In this document: positions 36,625-49,828 of the stretch, one piece after another | How positions within the stretch are numbered: position 1 is the stretch's first letter | Layout: each line of letters starts with the position of its first letter | From: Pseudomonas songnenensis | GTDB lineage: Bacteria; Pseudomonadota; Gammaproteobacteria; Pseudomonadales; Pseudomonadaceae | Length of the DNA stretch: 64,000 nucleotides | NCBI RefSeq assembly: GCF_003696315.1 | Contig: NZ_RFFN01000003.1 | Span: forward strand, 186,001-250,000 | Reading direction: 5' to 3' | Made by a program: the position numbers and the translations under genes | Notes under the pieces: model-generated | The model's database searches: none | What the model was told of the DNA's origin: nothing | Seen by the model: only the letters and a program-made list of their open reading frames with translations

Positions 36625-38145
36625 ATGACGTATCTACCTTACGCTAAGACCACCCTGGCCCTGGTTGCCGCCCTGTCCCTTACCGCCTGTGCCCAGCTGG
36701 AGCCGCGCCCGCTGACCGAGCAGACGCTGATCGATCAGAATCGCGCTGATCAGCAGAGCGCGCAGCAGGACGTGGATCCCATCATCGGCGCCCTGACGCT
36801 TGACGAGGCCATGGCCCGCGCCCTCAAGTACAACCTCGATCGCCGCGCACGACTGCTCGAGCAGGCGCTGGCCTTCCAGCAGTACGACGTATCGCGCTAC
36901 GACATGCTGCCCAAGCTGCTGGCCCAAGCCGGCTACAGTTCGCGCGACAACGACAAGATCAGTCAGAGCCGCAATGCCGAAGACGGCTCTCTGTCGCAAT
37001 CACGCTTCATCTCCCAGGACCGCGATCACACCGTCAGTTCCCTGGCGCTGAGCTGGAACATGCTCGATCTGGGAGTTGGCTACTACGGAGCGCGCCAGCA
37101 GGCCGACCGCGCGCTGGTGGCCGGCGAGAAGCGGCGCAAGGCCATGCACCTGCTGATGCAGGATGTGCGCACCGCCTTCTGGCGCGCCGTGAGCGCACAG
37201 AAGCTCGGCAGCGAAGTACGTGCCGCCACCCAGATGGCCGAAGAAGCGCTTGCCGATGCCCGCCAGGCCGAGGCCGAACGGCTGCGCAACCCGCTCGACT
37301 CGCTGCGCTACCAGCGCCAGGTGCTGGAAAACCTGCGGCTGCTCGAAGCCATCGAACAGGAACTCTCCACCGCCCAGACCGAACTGGCGCTGCTCATCAA
37401 CGCCCCGCTGGGCCAGCCGATCACCCTCGTCGAGCCAGCCTTCGAACTCGACCGTCAGGCACTGGCCGTGCCGGTCGCCGTGATGGAAGACACTGCGCTG
37501 GGCGCCAACGCCGATCTGCGCGAGGCCCACTACAACGCCCGCATCGCCCGCGAGGAAACCCGCAAGACACTGGTGCGGCTGTTTCCCAGCCTGAACTTCA
37601 GCTACGGCCTGAACTACGACACCGACAGCTACCTGGTGAACCGCCAGTGGAACGAAGCCGGTGTGCAGCTTTCCTTCAACCTGTTCAACCTGCTGACCGG
37701 CCCGGGACAGCTCAAGCTGGCCGAGGCGGGTGTCGCGCTGGCCGACCAGCGGCGGGTGTCCATGCAGATGGCGGTACTCGCCCAGGTCCACCTGGCACGT
37801 CAGCAACTGGCCAACGCCCAGCATCAGTTCAGCCGTGCCGATGCCATCTGGACCATCGACCGCCGCATCAGCGAGCACATGGATAACCGTGAGGCGATGC
37901 AGGTGCAGAGCAAGCTCGACCGGGTCGCCAACCAGACCACCACCATTCTCAGCCTGCTGCGCCGTTACCAGGCGCTCGCCCAGGCGCAGACCGCCGAAGC
38001 GCGGCTGCAGGCCACGCTCGGCGTGGAGCCGGAGATCGGCAGCGTCGGTGATCTGACGCTGGCCGAACTGGCCCGGACGCTGGCCGCCGGCCACGGCAAC
38101 TGGCAGACGCTCGCCCGCCGCGACGGCGAGGAATCCAGCCGATGA
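36625..38145 (+). CDS. TolC-family outer-membrane lipoprotein
   Basis: 506 residues from the ATG at 36625. An upstream ATG at 36511 would add a non-signal-like extension. The signal peptide ends at a lipobox LTAC (ALVAALSLTACAQ), so the protein is lipid-anchored like OprM-type TolC proteins. The body is long amphipathic helices in two internal repeats: LTLDEAMARALKYNLDRRARLLEQAL, ALSWNMLDLGVGYYGARQQADRAL, then LFPSLNFSYGLNYDTDSY and LSFNLFNLLTGPGQLKLAEAGVALADQR. It should form the trimeric outer-membrane exit duct. First gene of the adhesin operon; its stop overlaps the next start (ATGA). Confidence 0.88.
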   Translation: MTYLPYAKTTLALVAALSLTACAQLEPRPLTEQTLIDQNRADQQSAQQDVDPIIGALTLDEAMARALKYNLDRRARLLEQALAFQQYDVSRYDMLPKLLAQAGYSSRDNDKISQSRNAEDGSLSQSRFISQDRDHTVSSLALSWNMLDLGVGYYGARQQADRALVAGEKRRKAMHLLMQDVRTAFWRAVSAQKLGSEVRAATQMAEEALADARQAEAERLRNPLDSLRYQRQVLENLRLLEAIEQELSTAQTELALLINAPLGQPITLVEPAFELDRQALAVPVAVMEDTALGANADLREAHYNARIAREETRKTLVRLFPSLNFSYGLNYDTDSYLVNRQWNEAGVQLSFNLFNLLTGPGQLKLAEAGVALADQRRVSMQMAVLAQVHLARQQLANAQHQFSRADAIWTIDRRISEHMDNREAMQVQSKLDRVANQTTTILSLLRRYQALAQAQTAEARLQATLGVEPEIGSVGDLTLAELARTLAAGHGNWQTLARRDGEESSR

Positions 38146-38921
38146 AGACAATCCCCCTCGTTCTGCTGCTGATCGCCGCGACTGGCATGGCCCAGGCGCA
38201 AACCGCGGAAACCGCGCCGGCACGCGCCGGGCTGGAGCGTCAGGAAATCCGCGCACAGCTGTTGCCACGGCAGTTCACCACCCTGGCTGCGGAGATCGGT
38301 GCCAAGGTCAACAAGCTGCCGGTTGCCGAGGGCGGCGCGTTCAAGGCCGGACAGCTGCTGGTCAGCTTCGATTGCAGCGTGCAACAGGCGATGTTGCAGA
38401 AGGCGCGTGCCGAGCTGAACGCCGCCGAGGCGACCGACAAGGCCAACCAGCGTCTGGCCGAGCTGAATTCCGTCGGTCAGCTGGAAGTGGACCTCGGCCG
38501 CGCCGGTCGGCAGAAAGCCGTCGCCGAAGTCGGCGCGCAGCAGGCGGTGCTCGGCAAGTGCGGTATCAGCGCGCCCTTCGCCGGGCGCGTCGCCGAGCAG
38601 AAGGTGCGCGAGCAGCAGTTCGTCCAGCCCGGCCAGCCGTTGCTGGACATCCTCGACGACAGCGTCTTGGAGCTCGAATTCCTGGTGCCGTCTGCCTGGC
38701 TGGTCTGGCTACGCACCGGGCAGACCTTCGATGTGGAAATCGACGAGACCGGCCAGCGCTACCCGGCACGCTTCGAGCGCATAGGCGCGCGGGTCGACCC
38801 GGTCAGCCAGTCGGTCAAGGTCGCCGCCGCCATCGATGGCCGCTTCCCCGAACTGATCGCTGGCATGAGCGGCCGCGTGCGTGTCACGCCGCCCAATGCC
38901 AACCAGACGCCCAATCAATAA
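38142..38921 (+). CDS. Periplasmic adaptor (membrane fusion) protein
   Basis: 259 residues, short for the family (usually 350-400). The signal peptide ends near MAQAQ. The lipoyl/barrel-sandwich region has AAEIGAKVNKLPVAEGGAFKAGQLLVSFD, then one short helical hairpin (QAMLQKARAELNAAEATDKANQRLAEL), the return half ISAPFAGRVAEQKVREQQFVQPGQPLLDI, and a beta-barrel region. There is no membrane helix, unlike the second adaptor at 46419. It resembles RND-type adaptors. Coupled to the TolC gene by a 4-base overlap and 49 bases upstream of the giant protein. It probably bridges an inner-membrane component to TolC. Confidence 0.86.
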   Translation: MKTIPLVLLLIAATGMAQAQTAETAPARAGLERQEIRAQLLPRQFTTLAAEIGAKVNKLPVAEGGAFKAGQLLVSFDCSVQQAMLQKARAELNAAEATDKANQRLAELNSVGQLEVDLGRAGRQKAVAEVGAQQAVLGKCGISAPFAGRVAEQKVREQQFVQPGQPLLDILDDSVLELEFLVPSAWLVWLRTGQTFDVEIDETGQRYPARFERIGARVDPVSQSVKVAAAIDGRFPELIAGMSGRVRVTPPNANQTPNQ

Positions 38922-38970
38922 ACGCAGGCATTTCCGCTGGTGCTGCTGACGCTGCCCATCGAGGTCCGAC

Positions 38971-41900
38971 ATGGCTGACAAGACCCGAACCAACACCGCC
39001 CCCTCCCGCCTGGTGCGCAATCGCCCGCGGCCCATGGCGCTCGAGCAGCGCTTCGTCTTCGACGGGGCGGCAGCGGCCGACGCGGTGGATGCCATCGCCG
39101 ATGACGGCGGATCCGCCACACACACTTCGATCAACGTAGCGGCAGCGGCCGAAGCGCCATCGATCGTGTTCAATGCGCCGCCGGAAGCGTCATCCGCATT
39201 CACCGAAGCCCAAGCAGACGCAAGCCGGATGATCGGCGAGTTTCTGTCCACGGCAGACAACGGAACGCTTTTCAACCTATTCAATGGCGGTCGCAGCTCG
39301 CCGGACAGTGACTGGCAGGCTGCGGCGGACGCCTGGCTTAACTCGCTACGAGATGGTACGGCTCAGGTGAAGGTAGAGCTTCGCAGCCATGACGAGTTGC
39401 AGGGTGCCCTAGGCGCGTTCGCCGCTAGCGGACCCACCGGCAGTCCTACGGTTTTCGTGAACGCCGATTGGGTCGCGCTTGCCTCAGATAAAGCGATGAT
39501 TACTCGTGTACTGGTAGAAGAAGCCGGACACGCTATTGACTATGCCATCAACGGACCGCTGGACACAGCAGGCGACGAGGGCGAAGCCTTCGCAGCCGCT
39601 GTCTACGGAATCGAGCTGAGTGCTGCCGATGCGCAACGCATCCGCAGCGAGAACGACAGCCGCGAGATAACCCTGGATGGCATCAGCTATGAGGTAGAGG
39701 AAGCAGCGGTCACGTTTACGCAGGTGTTCAAGATCACACCGGTGTCGCAAAGTGAAGAAGCAAACAGCTTTATTACCGATCCGCTGGCAGTCAGCGGCAC
39801 CGGTTTCCGCTTCACGTCCAGCGATCCGTCTGCCCCCTACTTTTCCGGAAACAATGTCTCCGGCGTCCTGAGCTGGACCGATAGCCAGTCGGGTGAAACC
39901 AGATCCGTTTTCGGTGTGGTTAGCCGGCTGATCAAGAGCGGTAGCCGTGTCGATGGCCTGTATTTCTATGCGCCCGGCGCGGACGGTGTAATTGGTACAG
40001 GCAATGACGACTCAGCCTACGTCCTGCGTGTGAACGAAACGTTCAATTTCACCGGGGCTACCAACTATCGCACCAGTAGCGATCCGGTCGACACGGCGAT
40101 GAACAAGTTCATTCAGCCGAATCAGGCGCCGAATGTGGTCAATGACAGCGCCACCGTGCTGGAAGACAGCCTGGCACCATTGACCGGCAACCTGTTGACC
40201 AATGACAGCGACCCTGATGGCGACCCGCTGCGCGTATCGCAGATCACCTTGAACGGCACGGCCCATGCTATTGCAGCGGGCAGCCAGGTAACCCTGAGCC
40301 TGGCCGCTGGCAGCCTGACAGTAGCCAGCAACGGGCAGTACAGCTTTCAGCCAGCGACAAACTACGCAGGTGCCGTGCCGACGGTGGGTTATCTAGTCAC
40401 TGATGGCAAAGCCAGTGCGGTCGGCAGTCTGATTTTGACCATCGTCCCGGTAAATGACGCACCGGAAGGAACCGACCGCAGCGTGGCGATCAAGGCAGGC
40501 GCCAGCTACACCTTTTCCGCGGCGGACTTCGGCTTCCGCGACCCCAACGACAGCCCGGCCCATACGCTGGCAGCCGTACGCATCAGTTCGCTGCCCACAA
40601 ACGGTACGCTCTACTTCAAGGGCGTTGCCCTGACCGCCGGCCAGATCGCCACGGGCTACGAAGTAGCCGTGGGCGAGCTTACCCAGCTGACGTTCGTCGC
40701 CTCCCAGAGCAACGGGACAGCCAGCTTTGGCTTCCAGGTGAGGGACGACGGCAGCACCGCCAACGGCGGCATCGATCTGGACCCAACGCCCAACACCTTT
40801 ACCTTCAACGTGAGCATCGGTAACCGCGCGCCTGTAGTCACTGGCAGCGTTACCGGCGAAGCAGTGGAAGCGGGCGGGGTGGCCAACGGAACCAGCGGCA
40901 GCGCTGCCAGCGGCAGCCTACTCGTCGGCATCAGCGATCCAGACGGCGACAGTTTGACCCTCGCCAGCGTCGGCACCACCGTCGTTTCCGCCAACGGCAC
41001 CACGCAGATCACAGGCCTCTACGGCACGCTGAGCGTCAGCGCCGACGGCGCCTACAGCTACCAGCCCAATGACAGCGCCGCGGCCGTGCAGGCACTGCGC
41101 AACGGGTCCCTGAACGAGACATTTACCTACAGCGTTCGTGATCCCGCGGGGCTGTCGGTAAGCAATACGTTGGTGATCACCATCCAGGGTCGCAACGATG
41201 CCCCCGTGGCCGTGGCTGACTTCAACACGGTGAAGGAATCGGCAACCGGTTACGCCGGATCGACCACGGCCACCGGCAATGTGCTGACCAACGACATCGA
41301 TGTGGATGCGGGCGACAGTAAGACGGTAAGCGGCATTGTCGCTACGGCCAATGCGATTACCAGCTCGTCGGTAACCACGAGCCTGATCAAAATCACCAAC
41401 GTCAGCGGCTTCGACACGACGAAGGACTACGCGGTTTACCGCGGCACCGACACAACCACTCGAATCGGCACCTATTCCAGAGGATCTGCAATTGTCGACC
41501 TCGACGGCGCCGGGGCAGGGACAATCGGCACCATTCAACTTGACGCCAATGTGACGGTGAGTAATGGCGAAAGTCTGACCTTCTACCAGCGCAACGGACA
41601 AAGCGCGAACTTCAGCAGCGGATCAATCAGCGCTGCGGCGATCGTCAGCGGGACAAGTAACACAGCGGTGCAACTGACGGATATCAGTGGCAGCGTACTG
41701 GTGGGCATGGCGGTCAGCGGCGCAGGTATTCCAGACGGAACCACGGTGACCGCAATCACTGGCAGTACCGCAACACTTAGCAGCGCTGTGTCGCTATCAA
41801 GCGCGACACGAATCGATTTCACCCAACCGGTCGGGCTGAACGGCACTACGCTAACCGGGACGCGCGGTAACTTGCTGCTCCGCAGCGACGGCAGCTACAC

Positions 41901-44900
41901 CTACACCCTGACCGATATGGGTCTTTCCTCCGGGGACGTGCGAAGCGATACCTTTACCTACCGCATGCAGGACGCCTCTGGGGCCAGCAGCACAGCGACA
42001 CTGACCATTCGGATCGAAGGCACCACCGACAACACTGAGCCGGATGCGCAGGACGCGGCCGGCACTGCAGTCGAGCAGGGCTTTGCGGCCAATGGCACTG
42101 CCATCGGCAGCAACGCCACCGGCGATGTCTGGAGCGGTACCGGCACAGTTACGCAGGCATGGTCCGAGGCAACGCCGGGCACCACAGGCCTGAGCGTGGC
42201 CGGCCGCTACGGCTCGCTGACACTGCAGGCTGATGGCACTTACGTCTACACGCCGGCCAATGCGAACCCGGCAGTGGATGCACTGGCCCTTGGCCAGACC
42301 CTGACCGACACCTTCTTCTACCGCGTCAGTAATGGCGCCAAATCTGACGTTGCGCGGCTGACCATTACCCTGCAGGGCGCAAACGACGCACCTGTGGCGG
42401 TGGCTGACACTGCGACGGCACGTGAGGCAAGCGGTGCCGCCAACGCCATTGCGGGCTTCGACCCGAGCGGCAACCTGCTGAGCAATGACCGCGATGTGGA
42501 TGCAGGCGACAGTCTCACACTGACCCGCATCGGCGCAGGGAACGGGGCACCGGCGACCCTCGTGGCCGCTGGCAGTACCTCGGCGAGCAGCGCAACGAGC
42601 GTGACAGGCAGCTACGGCACTCTGCTGCTGGGGGCAGACGGCAGCTATCGCTACGCGGTCGACAATACCAACCCTACCGTTGATGCCCTGCTTGGCGGCC
42701 AGTCGCTGAGCGAAGTATTTACCTACGAAGTTACCGACAGTCACGGCAAGTCAAGCACGGCCAGCCTTACCATCAGCATCCAGGGCGCCGACGACAGCAA
42801 CGCTCCGATCAACAGCATGCCAGGCTCGCTTAGCGTCAACGAGTTCGACCGTCTTGCCATACCGCTTGCGGTAGCCGACATCGATGGTGATCTGGCCAGC
42901 GCTCGTATCACCGTTACCAGCGGTCGCCTCAGCATCGATGCACTTCACGCGGTGCGGATCAGCAGCGGCAGCAACGGAAGTGATCAGCTGGTTCTTAGCG
43001 GTACGCAGCAACAGATCAATGACGCCCTGGCCACCCTGAGCTATCAGCCAGGCGACAACTATGTAGCCCGCGATACCCTGGTGCTGACGAGCATCGACGC
43101 GCTGGGCAACCGCGACACCGATACGCTGATCCTGGACATCGTGGCCGACGATCGCGACCTCACAGTAAACAGCCCCACCGTCAACGAGGCATCGCCCTAC
43201 GTACATTTCAACGTGACCGGCGAAGCCGGGCAGCGCGTAACACTGGCGCTTGCAGCTGGCACCGCCAGCGCCGGACTGGACTACGTGCCGGTGCTCGAAT
43301 ACCTCGAGGGCAGTACCTGGGTCACCTATCTGAGCGGCACCGTCACCCTGCCTGCAGGGGGCGTGCTGCAGGTTCGCGTAGCGATTCTTGGTGACACCCT
43401 GAACGAGGGCAGCGAGACGTTCGAGCTGCGCGCTTGTAATTCGGCCAACGAAGTCTTTACCGGTACCGCCACGATCGTCGATGACGGCAGCGGCGTGCTG
43501 TTCGATCCCGCGGGCCAGCCTGACACCACCAGCACGCTGGACGACGATAGGCCGCTCTCCGTCAGCAGCGTGGAAGTCAACGAAGGTTCGCCTTACGCAA
43601 TCTTCCAGGTTGGCGGCGCTACGGGGCAGCGCGTCGCTCTATCGCTGGTCAATGGCAGCGCGGTGGATGCGGATCATGGCACCACCTTGCAGTATCTGGA
43701 CGGCAACCAGTGGCGAAACTACACCGGCCCGATCAGCCTTTCCGCCCCAACTCTGCTCGTGCGCGTTGCGATCGTGGCCGACGGTGTATACGAGGGCCGC
43801 GAAACCTTCGGACTGGTGGCGCAAAACAATGGAGGCGGCAGCGCAGTCGGTACAGCCGGCATCCACGATGACGGCACCGGCGTGATGTTTGATGGAGAAA
43901 ACAAGACAGGCAACCCGGATACCGCACCGCTCACCGATGACCGCACCCTCAGCGTATCCAGCCCGACTGTGAACGAGGCTTCCGACTGGGCCGTGTTCAC
44001 CGTCAGCGGCGACGCCGGCTTGTCCGTTTCGCTCTCGGTCGTGCAGCAAAGCGGTACGGGGCGCGCCGATCTGGGGACGCTTCCAGCGATTCAGGTGTGG
44101 AACGGCCAGGAATGGACCGATTACACCGCTGCTTCATTGCCCGCCCTGGACGGCCAGGGTCAACTGCTTGTTCGCGTTGACATCAGGGCTGAGCAGGACA
44201 CCGCCTATGAAGTCGCAGAAACCTTTGAGCTGCTCGCTAATCTTGCCCCGCCTAATGGGCGAGCTGGCGTGACTGGCACGGCGACGATCGTCGACAACGG
44301 GAACGGCGTGATCTACCTGCCGGGTGCCCCTGGCGCCAACGGCCTGCCTGCAACTTCAACGCTGGGCCTGGACAACGACAACCCCGGCAACCAGCCCTCC
44401 GTGCTGCGGCCCGACAGCCAGACCATCGATGAGGACAGCATCGCAAGGGGCAATGTGCTCGAGAACGACAGCGACCCCGACGACATTCTTAGGGTGGCCG
44501 GCTTCAGCATTGGCGGAACCTCCTACATACCGGGGAGCACCGCAACCCTGTCCGACATTGGCAGTCTGGTACTCAACGCCGACGGCAGCTACGTATTCAC
44601 CCCCGTAGCCGACTGGAATGGCAGCCTGCCGACAGTGACCTACAGCACTCAAACCGGCGCCAGCAGCACACTCGATATCACCGTACGCCCGCAACCGGAC
44701 GCCGCGGTAATCGGCGGTGTCGATATTGGCTCAGTAACCGAAGACCTCAATATTACAGCGGGCAACCTGACCACCGGCGGCAGCCTGACCGTCACCGACC
44801 CGGATGCCGGTGAAGCCAGCTTCCAGCCCACCGTCAGCGCACCGGCCGGAACACTGGGCACTCTGACCATTTCCACCACCGGCACCTGGACCTACAGCGT

Positions 44901-46422
44901 AACGAACAGCGCGGTGCAGTACCTGAAGTCCGGTGAAACCAAGGTCGAGACCTTTACCGTCAGAACTGTAGACGGCACCCAGCACACCGTCACCGTGACC
45001 ATCCATGGCGTAAGCGACACTGCCGTCGTCGGCGGCTACGCAGTGGGTTCGGTGACCGAAGATCTCAACGTCACAGCGGGCAACCTGACCACCGGCGGCA
45101 GCCTGACCGTCACCGACCCGGATGCCGGTGAAGCCAGCTTCCAGCCCACCGTCAGCGCACCGGCCGGAACACTGGGCACTCTGACCATCTCCACCACCGG
45201 CACCTGGACCTACAGCGTGCCGAACAGCGCGGTGCAGTACCTGAAGTCCGGTGCAACCAAGGTCGAGACCTTTACCGTCAGCACCGTGGACGGCACCCAG
45301 CAGACCGTCACCGTGACCATCCACGGCGTGAACGATCCAGCGCAGTTCGCGCCGAGCGGCCAGCAGGGCTATGTTCAGGAGGACACCTTGCTCACCTCGG
45401 AGGGGCAGCTCAGCGTGACGGATGCCGATCAAGGCGAGGCTGTGATCGTGGCGCAGCCAGCCACCCGCGGACAATTTGGCGAGTTCAGCATCGACAGCAC
45501 CGGGCACTGGCGCTATACGCTGGACAATACCAATCCGGCCGTGCAGGCACTGGGCACGGCCGATCGCCGCACCGAAACCTTCACCGTGACCTCTGGCGAT
45601 GGCAGCAGCACGACGGTAGTAATCACGGTTCAGGGGTTGGACGAGCCTGTAGTGTCGCAGCCGCAACCGCAGCCCGTGCCTCCGGTTGTCGTCGCGCCGC
45701 CGCAGCCGGCCGCACCGCTGCCCGTTCCGCCTCCTGCGGCACCGGAGCCAGTGGCTCCGCCTGCGCCGCCGGCTCCGTTCGATACCACGGTAGCACCTGC
45801 CAATACGCTGGCCGCGCCTGCCGCTGTCGCGGCACCTCTGATTGCAGCTGTGCAGAGTCGCGACCTGGACCTGGCGCTGCACAGCCGAGCCACATTCGCG
45901 GACATCTATACCCAGCGCGCCGGCTTCCAGATCGTTGTGATCGAAGCGCCCCAGCCGCGCCTGAGCCTGTATCACGGTGTAGCGGACCAGTATGCAGACG
46001 CAGGCACGCAGACCAGTTTCTCGGTGCCATACGATGCCTTTGCGCACACCGATCCGAACGAGCGCATCCTGCTAAGCGCCACGCAAGCCGACGGCCAACC
46101 ACTGCCGAGCTGGGTGCGCTTCGACCCGCAGAGCGGCAAGTTCGAACTGGCCGCCCCGTCCGGCTATCGCGGCGAGCTGACCATCAAGGTCGTGGCGCGT
46201 GACAGCCAAGGCCGGGAAGCCAGCTCGCTGTTCCGCTTCAACGTGGGTGATCGCAAGGCGAGCGATGCCAGCGGCCGAGCCACGTTGTCCGACCAGCTCC
46301 GCCAGGCGGCGGGCCAGCGCCCGGTCCAGGCGTTGGAGCGGGCGCTTTCCAGCAGCCGTGCCGAACCTGCCCAGACCGTTCGCGGCCCAGGCGAGTCTCG
46401 GCCGGATCACAAGGCAAGTTGA
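38971..46422 (+). CDS. Giant repeat surface protein (LEPR-type N-terminus, VCBS/cadherin-like and Calx-beta-like repeats)
   Basis: 2483 residues. Order: basic N-terminus with LEQRFVFDGA at 24-33, a variant of the LEPRxLFDGA motif of giant exported proteins; a zincin-like segment with Glu183-Glu184-x-x-His187 and D202EGE; cadherin/VCBS-type domains from ~384 to 1390 (repeated LEDSLAPLTGNLLTNDSD-type openings, SDPDGD, GxYxYxP, NDAPVAVAD), one enlarged by an insertion; three Calx-beta-like repeats at ~1392-1780; further VCBS repeats including a 106-residue tandem duplication at 1918-2129; a Pro-rich linker at ~2226-2270; and a He_PIG-like domain at ~2330-2425. No RTX nonapeptides, no autotransporter barrel and no standard signal peptide are visible. 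Probably a calcium-binding surface adhesin exported by the neighbouring genes; its ligand is unknown. Confidence 0.85.
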   Translation: MADKTRTNTAPSRLVRNRPRPMALEQRFVFDGAAAADAVDAIADDGGSATHTSINVAAAAEAPSIVFNAPPEASSAFTEAQADASRMIGEFLSTADNGTLFNLFNGGRSSPDSDWQAAADAWLNSLRDGTAQVKVELRSHDELQGALGAFAASGPTGSPTVFVNADWVALASDKAMITRVLVEEAGHAIDYAINGPLDTAGDEGEAFAAAVYGIELSAADAQRIRSENDSREITLDGISYEVEEAAVTFTQVFKITPVSQSEEANSFITDPLAVSGTGFRFTSSDPSAPYFSGNNVSGVLSWTDSQSGETRSVFGVVSRLIKSGSRVDGLYFYAPGADGVIGTGNDDSAYVLRVNETFNFTGATNYRTSSDPVDTAMNKFIQPNQAPNVVNDSATVLEDSLAPLTGNLLTNDSDPDGDPLRVSQITLNGTAHAIAAGSQVTLSLAAGSLTVASNGQYSFQPATNYAGAVPTVGYLVTDGKASAVGSLILTIVPVNDAPEGTDRSVAIKAGASYTFSAADFGFRDPNDSPAHTLAAVRISSLPTNGTLYFKGVALTAGQIATGYEVAVGELTQLTFVASQSNGTASFGFQVRDDGSTANGGIDLDPTPNTFTFNVSIGNRAPVVTGSVTGEAVEAGGVANGTSGSAASGSLLVGISDPDGDSLTLASVGTTVVSANGTTQITGLYGTLSVSADGAYSYQPNDSAAAVQALRNGSLNETFTYSVRDPAGLSVSNTLVITIQGRNDAPVAVADFNTVKESATGYAGSTTATGNVLTNDIDVDAGDSKTVSGIVATANAITSSSVTTSLIKITNVSGFDTTKDYAVYRGTDTTTRIGTYSRGSAIVDLDGAGAGTIGTIQLDANVTVSNGESLTFYQRNGQSANFSSGSISAAAIVSGTSNTAVQLTDISGSVLVGMAVSGAGIPDGTTVTAITGSTATLSSAVSLSSATRIDFTQPVGLNGTTLTGTRGNLLLRSDGSYTYTLTDMGLSSGDVRSDTFTYRMQDASGASSTATLTIRIEGTTDNTEPDAQDAAGTAVEQGFAANGTAIGSNATGDVWSGTGTVTQAWSEATPGTTGLSVAGRYGSLTLQADGTYVYTPANANPAVDALALGQTLTDTFFYRVSNGAKSDVARLTITLQGANDAPVAVADTATAREASGAANAIAGFDPSGNLLSNDRDVDAGDSLTLTRIGAGNGAPATLVAAGSTSASSATSVTGSYGTLLLGADGSYRYAVDNTNPTVDALLGGQSLSEVFTYEVTDSHGKSSTASLTISIQGADDSNAPINSMPGSLSVNEFDRLAIPLAVADIDGDLASARITVTSGRLSIDALHAVRISSGSNGSDQLVLSGTQQQINDALATLSYQPGDNYVARDTLVLTSIDALGNRDTDTLILDIVADDRDLTVNSPTVNEASPYVHFNVTGEAGQRVTLALAAGTASAGLDYVPVLEYLEGSTWVTYLSGTVTLPAGGVLQVRVAILGDTLNEGSETFELRACNSANEVFTGTATIVDDGSGVLFDPAGQPDTTSTLDDDRPLSVSSVEVNEGSPYAIFQVGGATGQRVALSLVNGSAVDADHGTTLQYLDGNQWRNYTGPISLSAPTLLVRVAIVADGVYEGRETFGLVAQNNGGGSAVGTAGIHDDGTGVMFDGENKTGNPDTAPLTDDRTLSVSSPTVNEASDWAVFTVSGDAGLSVSLSVVQQSGTGRADLGTLPAIQVWNGQEWTDYTAASLPALDGQGQLLVRVDIRAEQDTAYEVAETFELLANLAPPNGRAGVTGTATIVDNGNGVIYLPGAPGANGLPATSTLGLDNDNPGNQPSVLRPDSQTIDEDSIARGNVLENDSDPDDILRVAGFSIGGTSYIPGSTATLSDIGSLVLNADGSYVFTPVADWNGSLPTVTYSTQTGASSTLDITVRPQPDAAVIGGVDIGSVTEDLNITAGNLTTGGSLTVTDPDAGEASFQPTVSAPAGTLGTLTISTTGTWTYSVTNSAVQYLKSGETKVETFTVRTVDGTQHTVTVTIHGVSDTAVVGGYAVGSVTEDLNVTAGNLTTGGSLTVTDPDAGEASFQPTVSAPAGTLGTLTISTTGTWTYSVPNSAVQYLKSGATKVETFTVSTVDGTQQTVTVTIHGVNDPAQFAPSGQQGYVQEDTLLTSEGQLSVTDADQGEAVIVAQPATRGQFGEFSIDSTGHWRYTLDNTNPAVQALGTADRRTETFTVTSGDGSSTTVVITVQGLDEPVVSQPQPQPVPPVVVAPPQPAAPLPVPPPAAPEPVAPPAPPAPFDTTVAPANTLAAPAAVAAPLIAAVQSRDLDLALHSRATFADIYTQRAGFQIVVIEAPQPRLSLYHGVADQYADAGTQTSFSVPYDAFAHTDPNERILLSATQADGQPLPSWVRFDPQSGKFELAAPSGYRGELTIKVVARDSQGREASSLFRFNVGDRKASDASGRATLSDQLRQAAGQRPVQALERALSSSRAEPAQTVRGPGESRPDHKAS
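44722..45357 (+). repeat. Tandem duplication of a 318-base VCBS unit
   Basis: Two adjacent copies of a 106-residue VCBS repeat, offset by exactly 318 bases. A 116-base stretch is identical (44755-44870 and 45073-45188), much closer than any other pair of repeats in the gene. This points to a recent duplication and a site for unequal recombination, so repeat number may vary between strains. Confidence 0.9.
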
Positions 46423-47726
46423 AGGTGGAACGGTCCCCCCTTGCAGGCCTGCTTGAATTAGGCCGTCAGGCTCGGCAAGCCGAAACGCCGGCCGAGCTGC
46501 AGTTCCTGCTGGTCAACGATAGCCATGCGCTGTTGCCTTACCGACAGGCAGCGCTCTGGCTCACCGGCAGCGTGCGAGCGCTATCGGGCATCGTTCAGGT
46601 CGAAGCCAACGTGCCCTATGTGCTGTGGCTCCAGGCGCTCTGCGGGCGGCTGACGCAGACACCGGAGCCGCGGGTGGTTACGCGCGACGTCTTGCCCGAG
46701 GCACTTGCGCAGGACTGGAGTGAGTGGCTGCCAGACCAGGCGCTGTGGGTCCCGCTTGGCGACGATAGCGGCGTGCTGTTTGCCCGCGATCTGCCCTGGC
46801 GGGACAGCGAGGTCGCGTTGCTCGTCGAATGGGCCGGAATCTGGCATCACGCCTGGCTTGCACAGCAGGCACCACGGCGGCGCTGGGGCATTCGGCCGCG
46901 TAAGATGCAGGGCGGCAAGACTTCGCGTCGCCGCTGGTACTGGGCGCTGGCCGTGTGCCTGCTCGTACTGGTTCCGGTGCGGCTGACGGTATTGGCTCCC
47001 GGTGAACTGGTACCGGCTAGCCCTGCGCTCATCCGCGCACCGCTCGAAGGCGTGATCGATACCTTCCATGTGCAACCCAACGAAATCGTTCGCCAAGACC
47101 AACCGTTGTTCGGCTTTGACGAAGCGCTGATTCAGAACCGCCTCGAGGTAGCGCGCCAGGCGTTGGTCACCGCTGAAGCCGAGTACCGACAGACAGCCCA
47201 ACAGGCTCTTGCCGATCCGCGCGCCAAGGCACAATTGGCCGTGCTCACCGGGCGCATCGAGGAGAAGCGCACCGAACTGGCCTTCGGCACCGACCAGCTG
47301 AGCCGCGCCCGAGTGCTCGCACCGCGTGACGGCATTGCCCTGTTCGACGACCCGTCCGAATGGATTGGACGGCCGGTCTCGATCGGCGAACGTATCATGC
47401 GCATCGCCACGCCGCAGGATGTAGAGGTCGAAGCCTGGGTGCCGTTGGCCGATGCGATCCCAATGGCCGATGGCAGTCGCGTTGCCCTGCACCTCAACGC
47501 CAGCCCGTTGGCACCCGCCAGTGCAACGCTGCGCTACTTCGCCCACGATGCCGTGGAGCGGCCGGACGGCAGCTACGCCTATCGGGTGCGAGCGCGCCTG
47601 GACGCGCCGACCGAGCATCGCGTAGGTCTCAAAGGCACCGCGCGTTTCAGCGGCGGCTGGGTGCCACTCGGTTACTGGGCGCTGCGCCGGCCACTGGCCA
47701 GTCTGCGCGCGATGATCGGCTGGTGA
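46419..47726 (+). CDS. HlyD-family membrane adaptor with cytoplasmic GAF-like domain
   Basis: 435 residues from a TTG at 46419 that overlaps the stop of the giant protein (TTGA), with AAGG just upstream; a GTG at 46425 is an alternative. Residues ~1-155 look like a GAF domain ([38 protein letters not shown]). A membrane helix at ~173-190 is followed by a HlyD/lipoyl region: [22 protein letters not shown], helices with [14 protein letters not shown], return half [15 protein letters not shown], then barrel text. A cytoplasmic GAF domain on an adaptor is unusual and could sense a ligand or dock the substrate. Translationally coupled on both sides. Confidence 0.82.
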
Positions 47727-49828
47727 ACGTGACCTGGCCACTGCTACGCGAGGAGCTCTCCCTGCTGCCCGGCCCTAAGCTGGCTGACGGCCAGCCGAGC
47801 TGGACATTGCACGACCCGGCTCGCAACCGCTTTTTCAGCATCGACTGGTCGACATTCGAGGTACTGCGCCGCTGGTCGATCGCTGACGCAGAGGCCATTG
47901 CCGAGAGTGTGAGTCAGGATTCGACTCTGAAACTCGGGGTGGACGATATCGAACAGGTATCGCGTTTTCTTGGCGAGAACCAGCTGCTGCAGGCGCGCCC
48001 CGGCAATGCTCGCCAACAGGCCGAGCGCCTGAACAAAGCTCACGGTAGCCGCTTCAAATGGTTGCTGCACCATTACTTGTTCTTCCGCGTGCCCCTGGTT
48101 CGTCCAGATGCCTGGCTCGGCCGTTGGCAGGGTCTGGCTGCTCGCTTCAGCAGCCGCAGCTTTGCCCTGTTGACGCTTGCAGCGCTGCTGCTTGGGCTGA
48201 CTCAGGTCGCCCGACACTGGGAACACTTCGCCGCGTCGCTGGTGGATACCTTCACCTGGAGCGGCCTGGCTGCCTATGGCGTAGCACTGATTGTGGTCAA
48301 GCTGCTGCATGAATTGGGACACGCCTTCACCGCCAAGCGCTATGGATGCCGGGTACCGACCATGGGTGTGGCCTTTCTTGTGCTCTGGCCGATGGCGTAT
48401 ACGGATACCAACGAGACCTGGCGCCTTACCAGTCGCTGGCAGCGTCTGCGCATCGCGGCGGCGGGCATCGTCACCGAACTGGCTGTGGCAGCCTGGGCCA
48501 CACTGGCCTGGGGGCTTTTGCCAGATGGCGAGCTACGCTCTGCCGCTTTCGTGCTGGCGACGACCAGTTGGATCGCCACGCTGGCGATCAACGCCAGCCC
48601 CTTCATGCGCTTCGATGGCTACTTCATCCTCTCGGACTGGCTGGACATGCCGAACCTGCACGAGCGCAGCTTCGCCCTGGCCCGCTGGAAATTGCGTGAG
48701 TGGCTGTTCGATCTGGGCGAGGAACGCCCTGAGCGCTTCGCTGCCGGCAAGGAGCGCGCGCTGATCGTCTTTGCCTGGGTCACCTGGGCTTACCGACTGG
48801 TGGTGTTCCTCGGCATCGCCGTGCTGGTCTATCACTTTGCCGTCAAGGCCATCGGCATCCTGCTGTTCGTGGTCGAGATCGCCTGGTTCATCCTGATGCC
48901 AATCCGCCAAGAGTTACGTGCATGGCAGCAACGCTGGCCGGCGATTCGCCGCCGCCAGCGCAGCCTGCTGACCCTCCTCCTGCTAACTGCGCTGCTTGCC
49001 TTGGCGCTTGTACCTTGGCCTGGGCGGATCAGCACCAGCGGCATGCTGAGCCCTGTCGCAGTATGGCCGGTGCATGCGCCAGGCCCCGCTCAGCTGGCGG
49101 AGATGCCCCACGCCGAAGGCAGCCTCGTCGCTGCTGGCGAGCCAATCGCCCGCCTGGTCTCACCGACCCTGCTTGCGCGACGTGAAACAGCTGCAGCGCA
49201 ACTCGAGCGGCTGCGCTGGTTGGCGGCTTCTGCCAGCTTCGGTAGTGATTCACGAAATCGCCTGCAGAGCGCTCAGGAGGAACTGGCGACCGCCGAAGCC
49301 GAGTTTGCAGGTCTGAACCGCGAGCTGACTCGCTACGAGCCGCGCGCACCGTTCACCGGCCGCCTCTACGATCTCGACCCGGATTTGCATTCCGGCCAAT
49401 GGTTGGCCGACAAAGAACGTCTGGCCTTGCTGGTTGGCGACGAGGGCTATCGGGTTGAAACCTATCTCGGCGAGGAAGCGGTCAAACGCATCCAGCCGGG
49501 GAGCCCGGCGCGCTTCGTCACCGATGGGGGCAATGGAACCGTACTGCGGTTGAAGGTCAGCCATGTCGATATCGACGCAACCCGCGTGCTCGATGACGGT
49601 CGTCTGGCCGCACAGACCGGCGGCCATGTGCTGGTTCGTGAGCGACGCGGGCAATTGATTCCCGAGCAAGGGCTCTATCGGGTGACACTGGCGGTGGACT
49701 CACCTGTCGGTGCGCTGGCCGGCCAATCCTGGCGGGGCACACTGGTGGTTCATGGAGAGAGGGAATCGCTGGCTGGGCGCTACCTGCGCAACGCCCTTAG
49801 CGTGCTCCTGCGCGAAGCAGGTTTCTGA
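47723..49828 (+). CDS. PqqD-like / M50 site-2-protease-like / HlyD-like fusion membrane protein
   Basis: 701 residues from a GTG at 47723 overlapping the previous stop (GTGA). Order: a PqqD/RRE-like N-terminus at ~1-95 ([36 protein letters not shown]); membrane helices from ~145; the M50 motif HELGH at 196-200 and a second metal-ligand motif with Asp298 in [15 protein letters not shown]; more helices to ~430; then a periplasmic HlyD/lipoyl-like part ([21 protein letters not shown], coiled helices, [21 protein letters not shown]). About eight membrane segments. It occupies the position of the ABC transporter in a type I cluster but has no Walker motifs. PqqD-like domains commonly bind leader peptides, so substrate recognition and export or processing of the giant protein are inferred. 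The gene ends 12 bases before the convergent M23 gene. Confidence 0.82.

Follow-up and report, generated by a model that had tools for sequence, protein, structure and literature searches.

The 64,000-nucleotide stretch of Pseudomonas songnenensis DNA analysed here (hereafter the window; contig NZ_RFFN01000003.1, positions 186,001 to 250,000) harbours a five-gene operon at window positions 36625-49828, which, on balance, we take to be dedicated to the export and display of a single giant protein that is unsignalled and rich in repeats. Its genes, all on the + strand, code in this order for a TolC-like outer-membrane duct, a small periplasmic adaptor (HlyD1), the giant protein, a second adaptor (HlyD2) and a membrane protein combining RRE, M50 protease and HlyD domains (M50-HlyD). 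Sequence comparisons with relatives give good support to these genes as a genetic unit, a widely shared putative export set for giant proteins with an N-terminal LExR tag.

The TolC-like protein (36625..38145, 506 residues) matches the OEP family in two stretches (PF02321, 3.4e-24) and has a lipoprotein-like start, and HlyD1 (38142..38921, 259 residues) matches HlyD_3 (5.5e-22) and TIGR01730 (117 bits, above cut-off), with no transmembrane segment in a Kyte-Doolittle scan; the secretory starts of both proteins were read by eye. The giant (38971..46422, 2,483 residues) is a secreted-type protein with cadherin/VCBS repeats (TIGR01965, 3.8e-144; PF17803, 5.7e-79). HlyD2 (46419..47726, 435 residues, TTG start) comprises a GAF-like region (residues ~3-153), one transmembrane helix (~169-193) and a periplasmic HlyD part. 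M50-HlyD (47723..49828, 701 residues) starts with GTG. The initial annotation had described five coupled genes devoid of Walker motifs, and both points hold: the overlaps are ATGA between the TolC-like and HlyD1 genes, TTGA between the giant and HlyD2 genes and GTGA between the HlyD2 and M50-HlyD genes, and neither a Walker A nor an LSGGQ-like motif is present in the five proteins.

A contig scan revealed at least 590 places encoding a relative of M50-HlyD, 80 of which were kept as loci, and a protein search for such relatives accepted 5,646 of 8,000 scored candidates. Another 30 loci, picked by score, come from the 64 genomes with a match among 145 of the order; several genomes contributed two, and the total is 110 loci. 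The HlyD2 gene adjoins the M50 gene in 103 of them; of the seven exceptions, three lie at contig edges (L011, L019, L045), and the loci L140, L143, L144 and L146 are divergent. TolC and HlyD1 genes are visible in 24 and 38 of the 110 loci, respectively; the available flank is often taken up by the upstream giant, and it extends 9 kb or more upstream and 5 kb or more downstream in only 44 loci. The genes of the set occur in other orders in distant loci. All five are present in another genome of the same genus (G404), with transport genes 86-95% identical in local alignments and a giant that carries LEQRFVFDG. The set was also found in loci of the complete genomes G018 (L129), G012 (L136) and G016 (L137, L148); in the latter two, the locus edge cuts the giant and the tag lies outside the visible part. 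Clustering of the neighbouring open reading frames (ORFs) of the 80 loci argued against a general helper gene, as the most frequent family outside the core genes and the giants, hybrid-histidine-kinase-like, is found in 12 of the 80 loci, and ABC-type ORFs in six. This kinase family (L009:6091-9135 and relatives) is a possible regulator.

The giant carries the motif LEQRFVFDG, a proposed leader, at residues 24-32 (39040..39066, + strand). Using a wide pattern (a narrower, earlier one missed the window giant), we identified motifs of this class in the N-terminal 300 residues of 32 large ORFs from 32 of the 110 loci, versus 2 of 2,282 control ORFs. Among the 80 close loci, 15 of the 18 giants whose frames open inside the locus carry it; it was not found in the giants of L038, L041 and L076, the last being partly masked. 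With growing distance from the window, the motif shifts gradually from LEQRFMFDG via LEPRMLFDG to LEPRLLLSADP, the last form being that of the LEPR-8K proteins of NCBI (NCBIfam NF012209). By hydrophobicity scan, 31 of the 32 tagged giants lack a strong hydrophobic N-terminal stretch, and the window giant has no signal-like one near its N-terminus (largest 19-residue mean 0.85).

At the other end, the giant harbours a conserved module (46090..46335, + strand, residues ~2374-2455) ending in GRATLSDQLR, a putative second signal. We aligned 63 C-termini, those of the window giant and of giants from 62 of the 80 loci, picked by their LPxW signature. After the shared terminal module, GRxxLSxQLR is present within the last 140 residues of 50 of these 63 proteins, versus 0.4% of shuffled sequences and 0.9% of 1,782 control ORFs. 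RTX repeats and autotransporter domains had been reported as absent from the giant, and our searches agree: the RTX pattern has no match in the window giant and three or more in none of the 63 giants (many of them cut at the 5' side), while the positive control, a LapA piece of the window genome, yielded 10 repeats, and no Pfam family of type V beta-barrel translocators or POTRA partners was found among the five proteins.

Other features of the giants were seen along the way. A zincin-like stretch, EEAGHAID...DTAGDEGE (window 39517-39590, residues ~183-205), lies near the N-terminus of the window giant, and a similar pattern is present in 7 of the 14 relatives of the giant that were checked; it may represent a degenerate or an active metalloprotease-like domain. 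In the congeneric genome G018, the giant (L129:11664-17738) has a DUF4347 domain (PF14252) directly after LEPRMMFDG. That of Pseudomonas sp. P818 (L007:1652-8706) is read in two overlapping frames, through a sequencing error or a real break.

The association of the set with LEPR-type giants, also proposed in the initial annotation, was borne out at the genome level. LEPR-8K proteins were detected in 32 of 299 genomes of the phylum, all of them among the 72 M50-positive ones (E <= 1e-20; Fisher 2.5e-23) and still all among the 67 that remain after five partial matches are dropped. In the order, they were detected in 14 of 145 genomes, all among the 39 that are M50-positive at E <= 1e-18 (Fisher 1.4e-9), a cut chosen with the list already in view; at E <= 0.001, 64 genomes would count. 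Because the samples partly overlap and the genomes are related, these Fisher values should be taken as upper bounds on how surprising the association is. Of 44 LEPR hits, 21 share a contig with an M50 gene and lie at most 60 kb from it, and 21 are on another contig than the M50 matches listed; the frames with a LEPR-8K match reach 19,427 codons. The window giant shares with LEPR-8K proteins the N-terminal LExR motif and the M50-HlyD partner (present in 32/32 genomes), but unlike them it fails to match the model.

Residues 5-92 of M50-HlyD adopt an RRE, PqqD-like winged-helix fold in the predicted structure, and the protein also has an HlyD adaptor domain. In all 59 relatives compared, R10 and D32 of the RRE domain (model numbering) are invariant, as are the zinc and catalytic residues of the HExxH and distal NxxPxxxxDG motifs, which lie in membrane helices, and PF02163 is detected. 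Pfam sequence profiles identified PqqD in none of these 59 proteins and GAF in only 2 of 60 HlyD2 relatives, the RRE/PqqD-like and GAF-like assignments resting on predicted structures. No M50 protease was present among the 50 rows listed when the top chains of Foldseek were re-aligned. The M50 core is shared with the daptide protease (NF041824, matching residues 54-390 with 168 bits, under the cut-off of 300) and the YydH/LiaK protease (NF058609, under the cut-off of 225). However, these M50 site-2 proteases of ribosomally synthesized and post-translationally modified peptides (RiPPs) have a short peptide as partner, whereas M50-HlyD is fused to an adaptor domain and goes with a giant protein. 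Similarly, in contrast with the RRE domains of lasso-peptide synthetases (6jx3, 5v1v), that of M50-HlyD, a putative leader binder, is part of a membrane protease-adaptor.

As the initial annotation had noted, no ATP-binding cassette (ABC) exporter is encoded in the operon or among its listed flanking genes in the window. In 99 of the 110 loci, no ABC-like ORF was found within the available flank. The remaining 11 mostly show single frames of ATPase-domain size (127-373 residues); L053 has ABC-like frames of 231 and 1,166 residues, and a 1,032-residue frame in L120 is outside the ABC profile. A protein resembling a type I exporter is encoded only in L066 (TIGR01846, 597 bits against a cut-off of 725.55), the ABC-like ORFs of the other loci having been judged by frame size rather than by profile. 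In L066 (12121-17205), this HlyB-like exporter directly follows the M50 gene and precedes lipase-like and RTX-like ORFs. Co-occurrence of an ABC exporter with the set, which it had been suggested to score across genomes, is rare within the flanks available.

An exporter could act from elsewhere. It is conceivable, though in our estimation unlikely, that a type I ABC exporter encoded at another place (LapB here, others in other strains) or a housekeeping exporter such as MsbA drives transport, the five genes supplying only the duct, the adaptors and a processing protease. Several observations favour such help in trans or otherwise weigh against the route that we propose. One of the five ABC-membrane proteins of the window genome (G000) is LapB (TIGR03375, 919 bits, cut-off 693.1). 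In 50 of the 80 relatives, whose genomes were scored for LapB, it is above cut-off in 30, and a PrtD-type exporter is above cut-off in 15 of the other 20, so that this set is compatible with help in trans. LapB is moreover enriched in M50-positive genomes, both in the order (23/39 vs 29/106, odds ratio 3.8) and in the phylum (39/67 vs 68/232, odds ratio 3.4). In G404, LapB has no match at E <= 1e-190, a result that covers LapB only. As for the link with LEPR giants, NF012209 matches neither the window giant nor any other protein of the window genome, and the Fisher values are inflated because the genomes are related. Finally, the route is read from genomes and predicted structures, with transport, localisation and cleavage all predicted.

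Other data nevertheless speak against a type I exporter acting in trans. A dedicated ABC exporter elsewhere in the genome, needed for export, was one of the objections foreseen in the initial annotation; LapB is there, yet its locus (contig C12, ~751-760 kb; L087, L088) is separate from the operon and holds its own HlyD, TolC, RTX protein, LapD (LapD_MoxY_N, GGDEF, EAL) and LapG-type protease (PF06035). No type I class is common to all carriers: LapB above cut-off is missing from 16 of 39 M50-positive genomes in the order and 28 of 67 in the phylum (41-42%), a proportion that does not support LapB as a shared partner of the giant, and G018 and G404, both congeneric with the window, are among the genomes without it. 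We searched PF00664 in 11 of the 16 LapB-less M50-positive genomes of the order. In eight of them (G018, G012, G016, G014, G104, G126, G088, G112), 25 of 26 ABC-membrane hits could be classified, as MsbA, MsbA-related, PglK-, CydD- or SmdAB-like, and all 25 stay below the type I cut-offs, which argues against type I exporters but not against MsbA; the 26th, from G018, is spread over two reading frames. Thus, G018, G012 and G016 have the gene set with no classified ABC exporter over a type I cut-off. The locus of G104 is divergent, and G014, G126, G088 and G112 contribute genome-level ABC counts only. C39 peptidases (PF03412) are present in 15 of 21 genomes examined, including that of the window, and this 21-genome set is therefore unable to show the absence of type I exporters; the order-level sample supplied the clearer cases.

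Other explanations fare less well. M50-HlyD might be a protease with a part in release or regulation, comparable to that of LapG for LapA, rather than the transporter, with the inner-membrane step taking another route. Its invariant catalytic residues and its resemblance, under cut-off, to daptide and YydH/LiaK processing proteases are in line with this, but we hold it to be improbable, as the protein has an adaptor domain, its gene is translationally coupled to that of the GAF-HlyD protein and the set contains no alternative inner-membrane pump. That Sec or another general translocase brings the giant to the periplasm, with the TolC/adaptor set performing the outer-membrane step only, is very improbable given that hydrophobic N-terminal stretches are missing from the window giant and from 31 of the 32 tagged giants, in spite of the secretory starts of the TolC-like protein and HlyD1 and of the general precedent of two-step secretion routes.

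Under the dedicated export and display route that we favour, the giant would be kept from Sec, and its LExR leader would be bound by the RRE/PqqD-like domain of M50-HlyD, as the fold and the co-occurrence suggest. The C-terminal helix motif LSxQLR might serve as a further signal, directed perhaps at the GAF domain of HlyD2. From their families, HlyD2 and M50-HlyD would form the inner-membrane base, HlyD1 would complete the adaptor ring and the TolC-like protein would be the exit duct, while the M50 protease, with its invariant catalytic residues, may trim the leader or free the giant. There would be no dedicated ATPase, and a general source would supply the energy; candidates are the proton motive force, extracellular folding and ABC proteins with housekeeping roles. 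Our confidence decreases from export itself to reading of the tag by the RRE domain, then to its cleavage by the M50 protease and lastly to transport that needs no ATPase.

Compared with known systems, the set resembles type I secretion, with HlyD-type adaptors, a TolC-type duct and a giant repeat protein that, by hydrophobicity, has no N-terminal Sec signal, all features shared with LapA/LapBCE. In contrast, it contains no ABC exporter, retention module, RTX repeats, LapD or LapG, and it has three HlyD-type proteins instead of one, with the RRE-M50 protein in the place of the pump. The conserved C-terminal motif of 50/63 giants is a candidate counterpart of the uncleaved C-terminal signal of type I substrates. 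The RTX nonapeptides found near the C-terminus in the LapA family are missing from the window giant. The operon also lacks the MacB, RND or MFS pumps of MacAB-TolC and RND tripartite systems, and the beta-barrel translocator or POTRA partner of type V systems. In the literature, chiefly freely accessible papers, we found no M50-HlyD secretion route and no export path described for LEPR giants; in a passage of PMC8277102, "M50" denotes a residue number or a fragment and has nothing to do with proteases. A separate secretion class, in which the RRE domain reads the LExR leader, M50-HlyD is both inner-membrane gate and processor, and TolC-type export runs on the proton motive force and outside folding without an ABC ATPase, is a tentative proposal that we regard as possible rather than probable. 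Of the distinct route for LEPR-type giants first suggested, with M50-HlyD replacing HlyB/LapB, the gene set, the lack of a local ABC exporter and the LEPR link stand, while the sufficiency of the five genes and the functional replacement of HlyB are hypotheses.

Around the operon, phoR- and CorC-like genes and a gene for a small outer-membrane beta-barrel protein (PF13505, 35256-36017) are found upstream, and a scan of the upstream region found no promoter. A terminator-like stem-loop overlaps the end of the M50 gene (49807..49821, + strand; one found vs 0.2 expected in shuffles, by consensus match only). Downstream, genes for an M23 peptidase and a response regulator occupy the opposite strand; a universal stress protein and an importer of branched-chain amino acids are also encoded on this side.

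Giants with a LEPR tag rank among the largest proteins of bacteria, and their link with this gene set provides a candidate exporter for them. An RRE domain acting on a giant adhesin-like protein would bring the leader logic of RiPPs into the secretion of large proteins. Should export prove to need no dedicated ATPase, an energised inner-membrane pump could no longer be held to be a general requirement of protein secretion through TolC-type ducts.

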